Source of the DNA: Bacteroidaceae bacterium
GTDB taxonomy: Bacteria > Bacteroidota > Bacteroidia > Bacteroidales > Bacteroidaceae
Reading direction: 5' to 3'
DNA length: 64,000 nt
NCBI GenBank assembly: GCA_017645305.1
Contig: JAGCPD010000010.1
Span: 248,001 to 312,000 of the forward strand
Below the pieces are notes generated by a model. The model was not told the DNA's origin and searched no databases. It saw only the letters and a list, made by a program, of their open reading frames with translations. Within the stretch, counting starts at the first letter, position 1. The number at the start of each line of letters is the position of its first letter. The position numbers and the translations under genes were made by a program. Below are positions 37,869-47,696 of the stretch, piece after piece.

Positions 37869-39041
37869 TTATCCGGCATAGCTGTGCAAACCACCCAGTA
37901 GGAAGTTCACGCCAAAATAGGTCATCAGCAGACAGGCGAATGCAAGAAGTGAATAGATGCGATAGTTACGTATATTGTTAAACCAAGGAAGGCTTTTGTT
38001 GTGTAAAGGAATACTATATATAAGTAATGTAATAAGTGCCCAGCTTTCCTTTGGGTCCCAGCTCCAGTAGGTTCCCCACGAGACATTGGCCCACACAGCT
38101 CCCAGAAAGATACCTGTTGCCAACAGAAATACGGCAGGCCTGAGTATTTCCCGTCGCAAGATACTTACTACTAACAGAATGTAGCTCAGCATGATGGTGC
38201 CCACGTGAACAAAGAGGAAAGGAGAGCGTAAGATTGGCACCAAAGGACTTCTGGCAATGGCTATCACCATGTAAGAGGCCATAGCTGTACCGCAAAGAGC
38301 TAACAGTAATGTTGAAAGTTGAAAGTTGAAAGTTGAAAGTTTAGGGCTGTTTATTGTTAATTGTTCATTCTGAATTCTCTGTTTCAAGGATACCCATATC
38401 ATACTGAGGGCAAGAAGCAGATAGCCTGCGTATGTAATGGCGGTTCCCCAGGGATCATAACTTATGGTAAAGGTGCTTCCTTTCCCGTCTTCGTCAAACG
38501 AGGTCTGATAGATTCGGTAGCCTTTTACCCGGCCGATGTTGTTCATCGAAATAGTAGTTTCTTTTTTCCCTTCCTTTGTGGCAATCACTACCTGGCTCAC
38601 ATAGTCGCTGGGGGTTGTGCCGTCAGCATCATACAGAATCTGAAATTTCTTAAGTGCCAGATAAAAGGGCATCTTCCCCGTCAGCGTGTATAAACCCTGC
38701 TCGTTCTTCATCCAAAAGGAACGGCTGGCCTCACCTTCGCGCAGATGAATCATTCCCTTGTGACTGGTAATATGGGTGGTAAGGGCTCCTGATAGAATAA
38801 TCAGGAAACTCACATGCAGAAGAAATACGCAAGGTCGCTTCCACGTCTTTTTCTTGTATAGCAGCCAGCATCCTGCTATGGCTGTTATAGCCCAAAGGCC
38901 AACAAACCACCACGCTTCGTAAATATGTTGATGAGCGTAATTAACGCCATAGCAGTCCTCTACAATCGTTGCAGCCGCTATGGCAATAACCAGTAAGATT
39001 ACCAGAACAAAGGACAGTTTAGAAAGGACGGAAGTTCTCAT
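37869..39041 (-). CDS. compact ResB-CcsA (system II) cytochrome c assembly protein
   Basis: 390-residue inner-membrane protein that should deliver haem to c-type cytochromes in the periplasm. The N-terminal 190 residues are ResB-like: two helices, IYEAWWFVGLWA, then FLLHVSFLIILSGAL, then MIHLREGEASRSF and a periplasmic domain. From about 240 on it is CcsA-like, with His in the helix FLFVHVGTIMLSY and the haem-handling WWD-type motif WGTYWSWDPKESW. Ordinary fusions exceed 800 residues, so both halves are cut down. A phrase repeat (38311-38377) inserts about 25 residues between the halves. It overlaps the Rid-like gene by 23 bp. The linked cytochromes supply an obvious client set. Confidence 0.87.
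   Translation of the reverse strand: MRTSVLSKLSFVLVILLVIAIAAATIVEDCYGVNYAHQHIYEAWWFVGLWAITAIAGCWLLYKKKTWKRPCVFLLHVSFLIILSGALTTHITSHKGMIHLREGEASRSFWMKNEQGLYTLTGKMPFYLALKKFQILYDADGTTPSDYVSQVVIATKEGKKETTISMNNIGRVKGYRIYQTSFDEDGKGSTFTISYDPWGTAITYAGYLLLALSMIWVSLKQRIQNEQLTINSPKLSTFNFQLSTLLLALCGTAMASYMVIAIARSPLVPILRSPFLFVHVGTIMLSYILLVVSILRREILRPAVFLLATGIFLGAVWANVSWGTYWSWDPKESWALITLLIYSIPLHNKSLPWFNNIRNYRIYSLLAFACLLMTYFGVNFLLGGLHSYAG
38311..38377. repeat. phrase repeats inside the ResB-CcsA gene
   Basis: Four tandem GTTGAAA units, then TTATTGTTAATTGTTCATT, in the region joining the ResB-like and CcsA-like halves. On the coding strand they give a peptide of the NEQLTINS / STFNFQLS type, which is not part of either family. 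Confidence 0.75.
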
Positions 39042-40158
39042 GCTGCTTCTCTTTGACAGCCATGCACTCCATCTCTACAAGCCATGCGGGACGGCATACA
39101 GGAGCCAGTGTTATGACGGTGGGAATTTGGGGGAAGCGGTCAGCAAACATAGCCTTTACCACCTCGTAGTCGGCTGTATCACGCAGATAGACAATAATCT
39201 GCATTACGTCTTCAAAGTCAGCACCTCCTTCTTTCAGCAAGGCTTCCACATTCTCCCACATACGTTTTGTTTGTAGAACGATGTCACCCACATGCTCCAC
39301 CTCGCCCTTGTTGTTGATGCTGGCTGTTCCAGAGATAAAGATGTGGTCTCTGTCGCCATATTCCACAACGGTTCCACGTTCAAAGGTAACACCATACTCG
39401 TATGTGGGATTCAGGTGTGTGGGAGCATACAGATAATGCTGCTGCCCAGGTTCTAACCCCGTAATGGCATAGGTGCCCAATTGTACCAGTGCTTTTGTGG
39501 CGGCAGGGTTGCCTCCAATTCCCGTACTGCTGATGTAATGCGTTTTTTCTGTCAGGCCTTGCTTCACAAAATTCTCTCGGCGGGCTTTCACCAGTCCGTG
39601 ATATTGGGTATCTACATCGCGGACAAAGAACCATGTACGCACACAGTTTTCTGCCAGCGTGGCATCAAACTTAGCCAGTAACGATTCATATTCTTCTAAC
39701 AACATTTCTGTTTGCTGGGCGCTGTCACCTTGGGTCTTGTACATTCCCATCTTCCACAAATGCTGATAGCCGTTGTGTTTAGCTACTACTACGCTATTTT
39801 CTTCGTTCACTTCCACGTCGCTTTGCAGATACAGCCATGCGGCAATCTTACTGCCGTCCAATGGTTGCTGCTGGATGAGGCTGATAGAGATATTCTTTTC
39901 TGATCGCATCAGAGGCTGCTGATTAGTGCTATCAGAAAGGAAGTAACGCTTCATAATATATCGTCCGCCCCAAAATTCGGGCAAATCAGGCAGATGATCT
40001 TCCGCCTCATAGAGCCTGCGAAGCTGTTCTTTGAAAGGAAGTTGCTTGCCATCAGTATGTAGCATCACATGCCATTCCGTAACACCCTCTCTGGGCGTAA
40101 ACGTGGCTACTTCGCCAGTCACTCCAAGCTCTTCAAATTGTATTTTGTTATAATTCAT
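39019..40158 (-). CDS. RidA-superfamily protein resembling chorismatase (FkbO/Hyg5/XanB2 type)
   Basis: 379-residue cytoplasmic protein. Residues about 250-375 are a YjgF/RidA-like domain (HIFISGTASINNKGE, HVGDIVLQTKRMWENVEALL, EDVMQIIVYLRD, and a terminal VEMECMAV). The N-terminal 240 residues form a second related lobe with TWFFVRDVDTQYHG. Two-lobed architecture and the FISGTASI, HxGD and VE(M/I)E blocks are those of chorismatases, which hydrolyse chorismate to dihydroxycyclohexadiene or hydroxybenzoate. The terminal Glu would be the catalytic one. It has its own TATTTTTGC box and overlaps the cytochrome assembly gene by 23 bp. A simple Rid hydrolase role is the alternative; enzyme activity is inferred. 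Confidence 0.7.
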   Translation of the reverse strand: MNYNKIQFEELGVTGEVATFTPREGVTEWHVMLHTDGKQLPFKEQLRRLYEAEDHLPDLPEFWGGRYIMKRYFLSDSTNQQPLMRSEKNISISLIQQQPLDGSKIAAWLYLQSDVEVNEENSVVVAKHNGYQHLWKMGMYKTQGDSAQQTEMLLEEYESLLAKFDATLAENCVRTWFFVRDVDTQYHGLVKARRENFVKQGLTEKTHYISSTGIGGNPAATKALVQLGTYAITGLEPGQQHYLYAPTHLNPTYEYGVTFERGTVVEYGDRDHIFISGTASINNKGEVEHVGDIVLQTKRMWENVEALLKEGGADFEDVMQIIVYLRDTADYEVVKAMFADRFPQIPTVITLAPVCRPAWLVEMECMAVKEKQHENFRPF

Positions 40159-40162
40159 GGGT

Positions 40163-40171
40163 GCAAAAATA
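40163..40171 (-). promoter_or_regulatory. -7 promoter box for Rid/chorismatase-like gene
   Basis: TATTTTTGC on the minus strand, 5-6 bp from the start codon, suggesting a very short or absent leader. No obvious -33 element. Confidence 0.4.
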
Positions 40172-40208
40172 CAAAAAAAACGATTAAATGAGGGACGAAT
40201 GAATATTT

Positions 40209-40967
40209 TTATTCATTATTATCCCCTAAACTGTTTATCCAGTCATCAATAAGCTGTCTCACTTCGTTCAGATTTTCCCTAAACTGGTTGCTCAGAATCT
40301 CTGTATGGTTGACATGCAGTAAGTTTTCTCCACCCTCGGCCATTATCTGGTGAAAGAGCGACTCTTGTGCATTTCCACCTGTCACACGCATCATGCCTTC
40401 TTTTCGTGTGCTGGGCACATTCACCAGGTTAGCGTATGACATTCCTTCTGTAAGATTCAGATTGGCGGCACCAGTTCCTCCGTTTCCACCATGACACAGA
40501 ATGCAGGCCTTGTCGAATAGTCCCAACTGCAAGGCACCGAATCTGCTGACATCTATCAAACCTAAATCCATCCGGATGGTATCTTTTACATTGACATACT
40601 CGTCCATATTAACACTGGCAAGAGTAATAACACGTTCACGCAATCTATTGGTGATGACCAACTCTACCGTATTGATGTTATCATCTATATTTGCCAGCAC
40701 CAACTCCATTTGTGTGTTGGACGTTGTATAGGGAATGGTTCGTACCACTTGGGCATAGTTGTCGCCTGTGGTAAATCCTGCCAGCGATACAGAATATTTT
40801 TTCTCCCACGACTCTATGCCGGAAAGAACGGCCGTCAGCTTTACCGTGTGTCCTTTATCCGTGACGTTATAGGACTGCTCCTCTATATCGCCAGAATCGC
40901 AAGAAACGAACAAAAAAGTGAAAAGTGAAAGAGTGAAAAGTGAAAATTTATAAATCTTCTTCCGCAT
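40209..40967 (-). CDS. mono-haem c-type cytochrome lipoprotein
   Basis: 252-residue lipoprotein; the signal peptide ends FLFVSC with lipidated Cys23. Residues about 35-150 form a beta-rich domain with no family I recognise. A single haem-binding motif, CILCH (155-159), opens a cytochrome c-like domain like those in large environmental cytochromes (KACILCHGGNGGTGAANLNL ends here; later ESLFHQIMAEGG). The signal-peptide core overlaps a phrase repeat (GTGAAAA units, 40917-40946). It is 12 bp downstream of a porin gene on the same strand and near a di-haem enzyme and a haem-attachment protein, so an electron carrier or sensor at the outer or inner membrane is likely. Confidence 0.8.
   Translation of the reverse strand: MRKKIYKFSLFTLSLFTFLFVSCDSGDIEEQSYNVTDKGHTVKLTAVLSGIESWEKKYSVSLAGFTTGDNYAQVVRTIPYTTSNTQMELVLANIDDNINTVELVITNRLRERVITLASVNMDEYVNVKDTIRMDLGLIDVSRFGALQLGLFDKACILCHGGNGGTGAANLNLTEGMSYANLVNVPSTRKEGMMRVTGGNAQESLFHQIMAEGGENLLHVNHTEILSNQFRENLNEVRQLIDDWINSLGDNNE
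40917..40946. repeat. phrase repeat (GTGAAAA) in a signal peptide
   Basis: AGTGAAAAGTGAAAGAGTGA-type tandem. Read on the minus strand it encodes the hydrophobic core (FSLFTLSLFTF) of the mono-haem lipoprotein signal peptide. Confidence 0.7.
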
Positions 40968-40979
40968 TATGTGTTAATT

Positions 40980-42230
40980 TTAGAAGCTGAACTGAAGTTG
41001 AACAGAAGCATGATGAGTAGAGATACCCAAATCATCATTGTCGCGATCCAATTGTGTCTGATGCCCATACCTGCCAGTATATTGATACATAGCCGAGAGT
41101 TTCAGGTGCACCTTGGGAATGTAGTAGTTGCATACCACCGCAGGCATGTTCAGGAAACCGTCTTTTGTTGTTCCGTTTCTATCCATGAAGTCATACCTTG
41201 CTCCCAATTGTACGGTGGGGGTAACAAAATATCCCACCTGAGCGTAGGCACCCCAATAGTTGAATGCGTCATCAATCTTCTGACGTTTGGTAAAGCTGAC
41301 GTGCATCCAGTGTGCCTCGGCACCAAAGTACCAACGGTTCAGCAGCATAGAGAATTCGGCTCCCAATCGCGCATCGTTGGTGCTCTCGCTTTCGCTTTCC
41401 ACATTCAGGCTCCCACTTAAGCCAAACAACATGTGCTTTCCTTTCAACATCTTGGCATTACCCTGTGTGGCAGGCATCTGTCCCCAGGGCATAAAGGTGA
41501 TACGTCCTGCATAGAGTAGGGCAGGGATGTGCCAGTCATCAGAGAAAGTCTTGGTGGCTGAGTTTACGGACGATCCGCTTCCGTTCCACAAACCAACCTC
41601 ATAGCCTATCAGCCAACTTTCCGGCTTTTTGTTCAGCTTGGCTATGCCATGAAATTCTACACCTATGTCAAATCCTGTACCGATGATTGGCGTTACAGCA
41701 TTCAGCACATGCGGCATGATGGTAGAGGTTGTGAGCGATGAGGGAAGGGTAGGGAATAGCGTCTCGCCTAATGTAGTAAGATAAGCATGTGTGAAGGGTG
41801 TTTTGAACTTACCTACACGAAAGCGGGCAGCAGGGTTAATACTATAGTCCACCCAAGCCTGTTGCAGGATGTCGGCTCCCTTGGCCGCAGCATTTACAGA
41901 CAGGTTGTAATCCAGTCTGCCAAAGGTCTTGCCAGTAAAACCTAAGATGGCATACGGAATGGCAAAGCCCGAGTTGGCCACATTATCTTGATTATAGGCC
42001 TTGTCTAATCCCTCGTCGTCGTAGTAGTTAAACTGTCCTCGAGTCTGTAGGAAGAGATAGGGCTTAAAGACAAACTTCCCGTTTTTCGACTGAAGCGTGA
42101 AGCCTCTGTCATCGGCAATACCCAACACTCCATTCTCCATATCAATGCTTGGCGTATCTTGCGCCAGAATACATTGAACATTGAACATTGAACATTGAAC
42201 AATAATCAAAAATAAAGTTATTCGTTTCAT
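40980..42230 (-). CDS. porin-like outer-membrane beta-barrel (OprP/OprO type)
   Basis: 416-residue exported protein with signal peptide ending ILAQ and a phosphate-selective-porin-like barrel. Features are FVFKPYLFLQTRGQFNYYDDEG, RLDYNLSVNAAAKGADILQQAW, and FRVGKFKTPFTHAYLTT. The last is the strand motif common to this family, where the barrel ends in an aromatic (VQLQFSF). The signal peptide contains the ATTGAAC phrase repeat. It lies 35 bp downstream of the di-haem oxidoreductase gene and 12 bp upstream of the cytochrome lipoprotein gene. A role in letting iron chelates or anions reach the periplasmic redox proteins is inferred from position only. Confidence 0.85.
   Translation of the reverse strand: MKRITLFLIIVQCSMFNVQCILAQDTPSIDMENGVLGIADDRGFTLQSKNGKFVFKPYLFLQTRGQFNYYDDEGLDKAYNQDNVANSGFAIPYAILGFTGKTFGRLDYNLSVNAAAKGADILQQAWVDYSINPAARFRVGKFKTPFTHAYLTTLGETLFPTLPSSLTTSTIMPHVLNAVTPIIGTGFDIGVEFHGIAKLNKKPESWLIGYEVGLWNGSGSSVNSATKTFSDDWHIPALLYAGRITFMPWGQMPATQGNAKMLKGKHMLFGLSGSLNVESESESTNDARLGAEFSMLLNRWYFGAEAHWMHVSFTKRQKIDDAFNYWGAYAQVGYFVTPTVQLGARYDFMDRNGTTKDGFLNMPAVVCNYYIPKVHLKLSAMYQYTGRYGHQTQLDRDNDDLGISTHHASVQLQFSF
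42172..42200. repeat. phrase repeat (ATTGAAC) in a signal peptide
   Basis: Four tandem CATTGAA units. On the coding strand they give the QCSMFNVQC peptide in the signal-peptide core of the porin gene. Confidence 0.8.
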
Positions 42231-45119: not shown

Positions 45120-46490
45120 CTAATTCTTGAATTTCCATTTGTTGTCTTGAAGGAACCAACCGACATACGCTACACCTATGGCAAACTCGTTTTCTGATTT
45201 GTACTGACCATTTCCAATTCTTCTGCAGGTATAGTCGGCTTTTATTACCAGATTAGGCAACGGACGATAGTTCAGACCTGCTACCCACATCTGTGTTTTC
45301 AGACGCATATCGGCAGGCTTCGTGTTGTTGGCATCCATAATAACCTTCTCCTGCGGGTTGTAATATTCGTAGCGGAAGAATGGAATGAAATCGGGCATTT
45401 TCGGATAATTCACAAAAGCTTTTAGGTTTATACCTGCTTCTGCTCCGTAGCTAACAGCACGCTCGGCTATAGGAGCCAAACGGCTGTAGGGTGACTTGCT
45501 GCTCAGCTTGTTGTTCTTGGCTGTCAGCAGACTGCTGTTGCCAATGTGTCCGCCCAACAGATTGCCTCGTATCGTGAAATAGCGATGTTTGTATTGTGCA
45601 TCCACAGACCAGATGGTTACGGGAACCTTAAACGTATAGGTCTGGGGCTTGTCACTATTGGCTGCCGCATTGTTTACATAGTAGAAAGAGGCTCCCAAGC
45701 GTAGTCCGGGAACACCTCTGTAATTTATACGTGCCACGTAGGCTGGTGATGTAAAGTTGTCGGTCTCAAAGAATCCCTGCTTGCCACTGGCAGCCCAGGT
45801 GTTGCGGTCAAAACCGTTGGCATTCAGTCCGGCAAGAATCATAAACAGATAGTCGAATGATGCCCATTTTTTACCCAGTTCACCGAGAAAACTGATACCC
45901 GTCTCGTGCCAGGTACTGGGTAATATGGTGGTCTCGCCTTCTGGGCGAACAGTACCAAAGAAGTTGACAGGCTCATGATGTGTGTTGGTCAGTCCGACAG
46001 GTACTATCTGATGTCCTACACGAACCATAAAATTATTGTTCAGACGATAGGTCAGATGGAATTGCTCCAGTGCCACCTCACCACCTTTTTCCACCTCAGT
46101 CTCGTATTCTCCGTTCTCAGTGTTCTCAATCTCGTAGGCTGTTCCTGTACCGCCAGCCTCAAATTCCACCTCAACACCCAGGTTCCAGTGCTTATTGAAC
46201 TTGTAGTCGCCTCCCAGCACAAAGCGGGGAATGGAAATGGTATTGCGCTTGAAATCGCTGTTCCCCTGAGCCGTTCCATTAAACCGGTTTATACCATAGT
46301 TCTTGAACTGCGCTAAAATCTCGCCATAGCCGCCAATGCGGTAACGGCCGTATGAGTCCATTTCCGTAGAGTCGTTGTTCCACTGGTTTTTTTGCGCATA
46401 GGCAACACCACCAATTATGAATTGTGAATTATGAATTGTGAATTGGACAATGCCCGTCAATAGAAAAATTAAAAAAAGTATTCTTTTCAT
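45120..46490 (-). CDS. porin-like outer-membrane protein, first gene of iron/redox cluster
   Basis: 456-residue exported beta-barrel with a signal peptide ending GVAYAQ. Barrel strands show RIGGYGEILAQFKNYGINRF, the family block LGVEVEFEAGG, LEQFHLTYRLNNNFMVRVGH, and a strand-ending C-terminus. PVGLTNTHHEPVNFFGTVRP is typical of the OprO/P-like set of Bacteroidetes porins seen beside imelysin genes. The signal peptide holds a GAATTGTGAATT phrase repeat. A promoter (TTGT-N19-TACCTTTGC) lies upstream on this strand, so this gene heads the imelysin - DHOR - porin - cytochrome run. Substrate unknown. Confidence 0.85.
   Translation of the reverse strand: MKRILFLIFLLTGIVQFTIHNSQFIIGGVAYAQKNQWNNDSTEMDSYGRYRIGGYGEILAQFKNYGINRFNGTAQGNSDFKRNTISIPRFVLGGDYKFNKHWNLGVEVEFEAGGTGTAYEIENTENGEYETEVEKGGEVALEQFHLTYRLNNNFMVRVGHQIVPVGLTNTHHEPVNFFGTVRPEGETTILPSTWHETGISFLGELGKKWASFDYLFMILAGLNANGFDRNTWAASGKQGFFETDNFTSPAYVARINYRGVPGLRLGASFYYVNNAAANSDKPQTYTFKVPVTIWSVDAQYKHRYFTIRGNLLGGHIGNSSLLTAKNNKLSSKSPYSRLAPIAERAVSYGAEAGINLKAFVNYPKMPDFIPFFRYEYYNPQEKVIMDANNTKPADMRLKTQMWVAGLNYRPLPNLVIKADYTCRRIGNGQYKSENEFAIGVAYVGWFLQDNKWKFKN
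46413..46444. repeat. phrase repeat (AATTGTG/AATTATG) in a signal peptide
   Basis: AATTATGAATTGTGAATT repeated about twice. On the coding strand it gives QFTIHNSQFI in the signal-peptide core of the porin. Confidence 0.8.
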
Positions 46491-46518: not shown

Positions 46519-46550
46519 GCAAAGGTACGATGTGTTTTCCGCTCTCACAA
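46519..46550 (-). promoter_or_regulatory. promoter of the iron/redox cluster
   Basis: On the minus strand, TTGT, 19 bp, then TACCTTTGC, ending about 29 bp before the porin ATG. A good match to the Bacteroidetes consensus. Confidence 0.55.
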
Positions 46551-46671
46551 TACACAAAAACTATGAAAATGCCACATCGCCGCCTTCCGTCCATTACCCG
46601 TTTTTGATGATTTTAAGGGGCTTGCGCGTAATCCGGTTCCTGTAAACGGTGGTCAGCTGTGAACTTTGTTG

Positions 46672-46680
46672 TATTTTTGC
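46672..46680 (+). promoter_or_regulatory. -7 promoter box for hemerythrin-LuxR regulator
   Basis: TATTTTTGC, 20 bp before the ATG at 46701. About 120 bp separate it from the divergent porin promoter. Confidence 0.5.
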
Positions 46681-46700: not shown

Positions 46701-47696
46701 ATGACAGAGAAATATCATGAGATGGATCCCATGAGTGATGTCATCAGTGATGATTATCGCATGTTGCAGATGATTGGCCGTTTTGGCATTACTTTGGGCT
46801 TTGGCAATCAGACAGTGGGTGCCACCTGTAGGGCGGCAGGCGTGGATGTTACAACTTTCCTGACGGTTGTGAATTATGTAAAAGATGCGGCCCATGCACA
46901 CATAGGCGAAATGGTGGATCAGATAAATCTGCCTTGCTTGATACGTTATCTGAAGAACTCGCACACTTATTTTGTGGATTTCCGTCTGCCTAACATCCGT
47001 AGGAAGCTGTTGGAGGCCATCGACTGCTCTTCATCCAATCAGATAGGCCTGCTGATTCTTAGATTCTATGATGAATATGCGGCTGAGGTAGCCAGACACA
47101 TGGAGTACGAAAACTCTTTTGTGCATCCCTTTGTGGAAAATCTTTTGAACGGGAAGGTGAGAGTTGAAACGTTTGATATGGTTGTCCGGCAGCACGAAGA
47201 CAACCACGCTTCCCTGGAAAAGAGCATTGCTGAGCTAAAGAGCATCATTATAAAATACTATCCCAGTGATAACGCGGCTCAGCTGATGGGCGAGGTTTTG
47301 ATGGACATTTATATGACAGAGGAAGACTTGCTTACTCACTGTCACATGGAGGATACGCTGTTTGCCGAGTGTGTACGACGGTTGGAATGTAAGGTGCGAC
47401 GGGCAGGCGGCTCAGACATCAACAGTGTTGAGGAAGAGGAGGAAGAAAAGGACACAACCCTCGCTAACGACCTCAGTGAGCGTGAGAAAGACATTGTGGT
47501 GCAGGTTGCCAAGGGACTTTCTAACAAGGAGATTGCCGATGCGCTCTTTATCTCTGTAAATACGGTTATGACACATCGTCGCAATATCAGCCGTAAACTA
47601 CAGATTCATAGTCCTGCAGCTCTTGCCATTTACGCCTTGGTAAACGGCTTGGTTAATCTTGACGAAATTGTCCCCCTTTCAAATTCCCCCCGATAA
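46701..47696 (+). CDS. LuxR-type regulator with N-terminal ScdA/hemerythrin-like di-iron domain
   Basis: 331-residue predicted transcription factor. Residues about 8-60 resemble the ScdA_N/DUF542 segment of RIC iron-centre repair proteins (RMLQMIGRFGITLGFG). Residues about 80-225 are a four-helix hemerythrin-like bundle with the expected ligands: His88, ARHMEYE (His133, Glu135/137), His142, RQHEDNH (His165, His169), and THCHMED (His213, His215, Glu217). After an acidic linker, residues about 262-325 are a LuxR/FixJ helix-turn-helix (LSEREKDIVVQVAKGLSNKE). The ATG at 46701 follows the promoter box. It faces away from the imelysin/cytochrome cluster and is its most likely regulator, sensing iron, oxygen or NO. 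That control is inferred. Confidence 0.87.
   Translation: MTEKYHEMDPMSDVISDDYRMLQMIGRFGITLGFGNQTVGATCRAAGVDVTTFLTVVNYVKDAAHAHIGEMVDQINLPCLIRYLKNSHTYFVDFRLPNIRRKLLEAIDCSSSNQIGLLILRFYDEYAAEVARHMEYENSFVHPFVENLLNGKVRVETFDMVVRQHEDNHASLEKSIAELKSIIIKYYPSDNAAQLMGEVLMDIYMTEEDLLTHCHMEDTLFAECVRRLECKVRRAGGSDINSVEEEEEEKDTTLANDLSEREKDIVVQVAKGLSNKEIADALFISVNTVMTHRRNISRKLQIHSPAALAIYALVNGLVNLDEIVPLSNSPR

Follow-up and report, generated by a model that had tools for sequence, protein, structure and literature searches.

A fused hemerythrin-LuxR-type regulator of Bacteroidales and a conserved operator-like dyad linked to predicted iron acquisition targets

The closest described relatives of the regulator analyzed here are the hemerythrin-CdhR operons of Porphyromonas gingivalis (PG1236-PG1237/cdhR) and Bacteroides thetaiotaomicron (BT0519-BT0520), which were reported in 2023 (PMC10434189). 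In low iron, BT0519-0520 is induced about 16- to 20-fold and PG1236-1237 about 7-fold (PMC10434189), and CdhR has been described as activating hmu (PMC10101095). A fusion of the two components in Prevotella intermedia (PIN17_RS10465) has already been reported (PMC10434189), and the fused protein itself is therefore not new but a further fused member of the family noted in 2023. By published description, PG1236-1237, BT0519-0520 and PIN17_RS10465 share with it the combination of a hemerythrin-domain protein with a LuxR/NarL-type regulator; in the sequence comparisons presented below, the pairs of P. levii (L039) and of the Bacteroides type stand in for PG1236/PG1237. We found no operator motif or binding site, promoter geometry or metal-site analysis in the text of PMC10434189, and these are given here. 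We believe that the operator, its geometry and the broader range of targets are new, the literature compared being open-licence papers and an earlier description being possible.

The regulator gene lies in the window, the whole stretch of DNA that was analyzed (64,000 nucleotides), as an intact ORF at 46701-47696 (+) that runs from ATG to stop and codes for 331 aa. The protein consists of an ScdA_N-like domain (residues 1-69), a hemerythrin/RIC bundle (77-234), an acidic linker and a NarL/LuxR-type HTH domain (254-318; 47460-47654, +), the latter recognized both by Pfam and by structure comparison. This architecture had been proposed in the first-pass annotation from the sequence alone, and the subsequent analysis bears it out. 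In particular, residues 81-222 match the Hemerythrin family PF01814 (E 1.9e-8, 35.3 bits against a cut-off of 25.3), a match that is shared, at E 0.1 or better, by 20 of 20 aligned relatives, and residues 258-312 match GerE/LuxR PF00196 (E 2.4e-18, 65.9 bits against a cut-off of 23.5). In the AlphaFold2 model (mean pLDDT 84.3, pTM 0.67, with low confidence for the linker at 242-255), a helical domain at the N terminus is followed by a long four-helix bundle and by the HTH. Although Foldseek alone retrieved no PDB match for the fusion at E 0.001 or better, VIA-align comparison of the predicted structure aligned residues 53-226 with Staphylococcus aureus ScdA (Z 15.9, rmsd 3.0, 154 aligned residues) and with Escherichia coli YtfE (Z 15.3), compared with 13.1 and lower for unrelated helical bundles, and the HTH with LiaR (Z 11.1). 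The ScdA_N-like start, also postulated initially, is upheld by the similarity of residues 1-69 to 2k5e (GSU1278; Z 9.6) and by the end-to-end alignment of the sensor-part profile with S. aureus ScdA (E 4e-7). The acidic linker EEEEEEKD (47430-47453, +) precedes the HTH as originally described. No receiver domain is present in the fusion according to Pfam and the predicted structure. Sensor and HTH reside in a single protein, with the one-component layout that had been predicted.

The hemerythrin-like bundle retains what appears to be a complete di-iron site. In the YtfE crystal structure, H84 and H204 bind Fe1, H129 and H160 bind Fe2, and E133 and E208 are bridging (PMC9268430). The predicted counterparts, assigned from conservation and from the ScdA profile alignment, are H88 (46962-46964, +; YtfE H84, with the profile alignment off by one residue at this position), H133 and the bridging E137 in the motif HMEYE (47097-47111, +; YtfE H129/E133), H169 (47205-47207, +; YtfE H160), and H213 with the bridging E217 (47337-47351, +; YtfE H204/E208). 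In an alignment of 62 fused and 12 split homologues, all six residues are invariant in 62/62 of the former and 11/12 of the latter. The ligand list initially read from the sequence thus stands for H88, HMEYE, H169 and H213/E217 but not for His142 and His165, which vary across the homologues and were ruled out as ligands. We also considered a missing seventh RIC ligand (YtfE H105) and dropped the idea because the crystal coordination sphere uses six residues only. The ScdA_N-like domain, the four-helix bundle and the same six ligands are shared with the RIC proteins YtfE and ScdA, from which the window protein differs in the fused HTH and in the absence of the CC pair of the ScdA_N domain, the aligned positions being occupied by GF. 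Against the NCBIfam RIC model TIGR03652, residues 35-220 score only 48.8 bits (E 7e-13), far under the equivalog cut-off of 204.7. Given the absence of the CC pair and this low score, the protein is not an RIC by these two tests, even though its sequence marks it as RIC-derived.

MAGs of Bacteroidales from rumen and gut, Prevotella-like ones among them, carry the fused form, whereas in Mediterranea, Bacteroides, Phocaeicola, Odoribacter and Porphyromonas the split form is encoded by two adjacent genes, which in most cases overlap by 1-35 bases. In the Bacteroidales alignment, the hemerythrin/RIC part is thus either joined or adjacent to a CdhR-type NarL/LuxR HTH. The second gene of the split pair is predicted to fold into a receiver and an HTH; the receiver is not recognized by Pfam, and in most cases the phospho-acceptor position is occupied by N or S. 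The family resembles the NarL/FixJ response regulators LiaR, VraR and NarL in its HTH fold (Z about 11) and in having a dyad of the NarL-like 7-2-7 kind, but it does not have the makeup of two-component response regulators: the fusion lacks a receiver altogether, and the receiver of the split partner is degenerate, mostly without the phospho-acceptor Asp. The linker letters EEEEEEKD are common to the window protein and to the linker between receiver and HTH in the split partner of L030. The simplest reading, that the fusion dropped the pseudo-receiver and kept the linker, is suggestive; linkers of this kind are of low complexity, hence this is not proof. The tree requires two changes between fused and split forms, and a single origin is not rejected (p-AU 0.28), so that there may have been one fusion event or two.

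Divergently from the regulator gene, a row of genes on the minus strand begins with an outer-membrane porin-like protein (45120-46490; PF07396 and synteny), followed by an imelysin (Peptidase_M75, PF09375; 43841-45079), a di-haem oxidoreductase (DHOR, PF06537; 42266-43783), a Porin_O_P protein identified by Pfam (40980-42230) and a co-conserved segment encoding ORF252, a RidA-like protein and a ResB/CcsA cytochrome c assembly protein (37869-40967). The initial prediction of a divergent iron/haem operon was correct, and its proposed linkage with the regulator gains support from a divergent porin within 900 bp of the regulator in 21 loci and from the paired operator-like sites between the two genes. 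The window regulator differs from the PG1236-1237 type in this divergence from an imelysin operon and in being one of two copies in its genome. The imelysin appears to be of the circularly permuted type, which has been described only in Bacteroidales (PMC3143127): the Pfam profile is matched out of order, as circular permutation predicts, with residues 287-408 of the protein corresponding to profile positions 1-116. The RidA-like and ResB/CcsA genes downstream of the DHOR gene (37869-40158, -) are kept in L008, L015 and, for the RidA-like gene only, L009.

Expectation maximization on 60 upstream regions identified the palindrome AATACCYA-N4-TRGGTATT upstream of most regulators of the hemerythrin-CdhR family. 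The log-likelihood was 366 at width 22, compared with 38-50 for shuffled controls, and a 23-bp motif of odd width gave a worse fit. The palindrome contains TACCYAN-NN-NTRGGTA, that is, the 7-2-7 layout of sites bound by NarL-type HTHs, and the class of the dyad therefore fits the class of the HTH. With a PWM rebuilt solely from split and group-B fused promoters (27 sequences), leaving out the window's clade, the top site of the entire 64 kb window is 46592-46613 (CATTACCCGTTTTTGATGATTT; 12.0 bits), predicted operator site 1. Predicted operator site 2 (CAATACACAAAAACTATGAAAA, 46548-46569) scores about -1, but its position and sequence are conserved within the window's clade. Both window sites are degenerate, the 12 bits of site 1 comparing with 22-27 bits in Bacteroides-type split promoters; a plain IUPAC pattern, run over the window at three mismatches, returned only chance-level matches and missed the diverged local site. 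In the fusion sub-clade comprising L095-L098 and L100, no clear site was found upstream.

The position of the dyad relative to the promoter, expressed as the distance from the dyad center to the last base of T[A/T]NNTTTG, often takes the same values. The regulator has a -7 box of the Bacteroidota type TAnnTTTG at 46672-46679 (+; TATTTTTG) and the porin-imelysin operon has one at 46520-46527 (-; TACCTTTG). Measured to the end of each box, site 1 is centered at a distance of 76 bp from the regulator box and 82 bp from the porin box. Site 2 is centered 38 bp from the porin box by the same measure, and its center is 44 bp from site 1. Of 51 regulator promoters with a site, 20 have a distance of 38 bp and 19 one of 76 bp; at other targets, 17 of 66 site-ORF pairs share the 38 bp, and no other distance occurs more than twice; these counts include some duplicates (L009 and L083 are the same sequence), and the background rate for any distance is about 0.001 per position. 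The window's clade has a second site whose distance to the porin -7 box is 38 bp. Its spacing from the first site is 43-45 bp in nine loci, one of which is the window, and 34 bp in two; with either spacing the sites lie on a similar side of the helix. A distance of 38 bp places the dyad center at about -43, counted from an estimated start of transcription, and makes the dyad overlap with the -33 element at its end; LuxR, DevR and other class II activators typically bind at such a position. Judged from geometry, the overlap with the -33 element would suit repression as well as activation.

Dyads are also present upstream of several classes of genes at other loci, including porin-imelysin in three genomes (L142, L147, L153), TetR-methyltransferase-ABC genes (L144, L148, L152), flavodoxin (L151), a TonB receptor (L143), FeoAB (L181, L195, L197), and rubrerythrin in P. 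levii (L185) and in the window's genome (L159). A -7 box at 38 bp is found in all these classes except the two rubrerythrin cases; in the window's own genome (contig C51, L159:3381), the dyad-like site is 85 bp upstream of rubrerythrin and the nearest -7-like boxes are at 36 and 46 bp. Pfam searches with nine target-locus proteins confirmed imelysin, flavodoxin, TetR, TonB plug, FeoA/FeoB (L181, L197) and both rubrerythrins and yielded no match at the cut-off used for the porin-like protein of L147; the names for L195 and the remaining targets come from sequence inspection or similarity to window proteins. A site of more than 10 bits lies just upstream at five of eight HmuY loci, with the -7 box at 38 bp in two and at 40 bp in two. 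Across 295 Bacteroidales genomes, an excess of the motif follows the presence of the sensor gene (p 6e-7, shared ancestry ignored). With one mismatch allowed and the sensor gene detected at E 1e-12, the 195 genomes in which the gene was found have 2.84 dyad hits per genome against 0.69 for the reversed control, and the 100 genomes in which it was not found have 1.26 against 0.74. At least four hits are present in ten of the latter (G075, G171, G174, G195, G203, G247, G265, G271, G316, G325), which might be explained by sensor genes that escaped detection, by incomplete genomes or by a different protein that uses the operator.

Taken together, these observations make it likely that the fused protein is a one-component, iron-responsive di-iron regulator of iron acquisition, equivalent to the hemerythrin-CdhR pair and acting via the dyad. 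The RIC-type bundle would bind a di-iron site whose occupancy or redox state tracks cellular iron, and perhaps O2, and the state of this site, transmitted via the acidic linker, would control a NarL-type HTH dimer that binds the 7-2-7 dyad (extended AATACCYA-N4-TRGGTATT). At many family promoters the bound dimer would be centered 38 bp from the -7 box end, near -43, overlapping the -33 element. In the window, the pair of sites at 46592-46613 and 46548-46569, 44 bp or about four helical turns apart, would control both the porin-imelysin-di-haem operon and the regulator itself. As to the sign of regulation, class II activation in low iron is somewhat favored over de-repression. Iron is favored as the signal because of the target set, several classes of which are also induced by low iron (PMC10434189), and because of the published low-iron induction of the split relatives.

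The principal alternative, less likely in our estimate, is that the di-iron domain is a redox switch for O2, peroxide or NO and that iron genes are controlled because stress disturbs iron. RIC proteins react with NO and nitrite (PMC9268430); rubrerythrin has an upstream dyad in both the window's genome and P. levii; and the paralogue of the regulator in the window's genome is located beside superoxide dismutase, rubrerythrin and cytochrome bd-like genes, which keeps O2 in play. Nevertheless, iron/haem acquisition genes and flavodoxin make up most of the targets, iron supply has a strong effect on the split relatives (PMC10434189), and the CC pair of the RIC ScdA_N domain is absent. It is rather improbable that another regulator, Fur-type or of the NarL type, binds the dyad and that the hemerythrin regulator is merely one of its targets. 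The dyad occurs at many iron genes, so that its presence at the regulator gene alone is no proof of autoregulation, and the ten genomes with at least four sites lack a detected sensor gene. Against such a binder, the 7-2-7 layout matches the HTH class of the regulator and is unlike the Fur box, and the dyad follows the regulator through its fused and split forms at fixed geometry. Finally, the YtfE/ScdA fold and ligands could point to a protein that is mainly an RIC-type repair or nitrite-reducing di-iron enzyme with an incidental HTH; this is highly unlikely considering that the HTH is well conserved, the CC pair is missing, the RIC equivalog cut-off is missed widely and conserved operator-like sites adjoin the gene.

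If the protein is indeed an iron-responsive regulator, the findings indicate that, in many Bacteroidales of the gut and mouth, it and its two-piece relatives probably control genes for iron uptake. It is conceivable, although we propose this only tentatively, that the hemerythrin-CdhR family is the general regulator of iron homeostasis that takes the place of Fur in Bacteroidales, with a di-iron sensor, one operator and a fixed promoter position, and that its likeness to the hemerythrin iron sensors of animals and plants is convergent. FBXL5 and BRUTUS are eukaryotic iron sensors with hemerythrin-like domains (PMC12022348); the likeness is that iron homeostasis relies on such a di-iron domain for sensing iron, a role that is proposed for the window protein, whereas their output is ubiquitin ligation rather than DNA binding, and common descent is not claimed. 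If the proposal is true, hemerythrin-type di-iron domains would have been adopted for iron sensing in each of bacteria, animals and plants. The function becomes testable through the operator with its geometry and the enlarged set of targets: the six-ligand site, the dyad and the fixed 38 bp define short DNA probes, named residues and expected target operons.

The paralogue in the window's genome is a second fused hemerythrin-HTH gene (contig C14, L110:8764-9705), the product of which is 48% identical to the window protein. The adjoining superoxide dismutase-, rubrerythrin- and cytochrome bd-like genes were named from their sequences, and for the paralogue gene itself a dyad and the -7 box are 38 bp apart.
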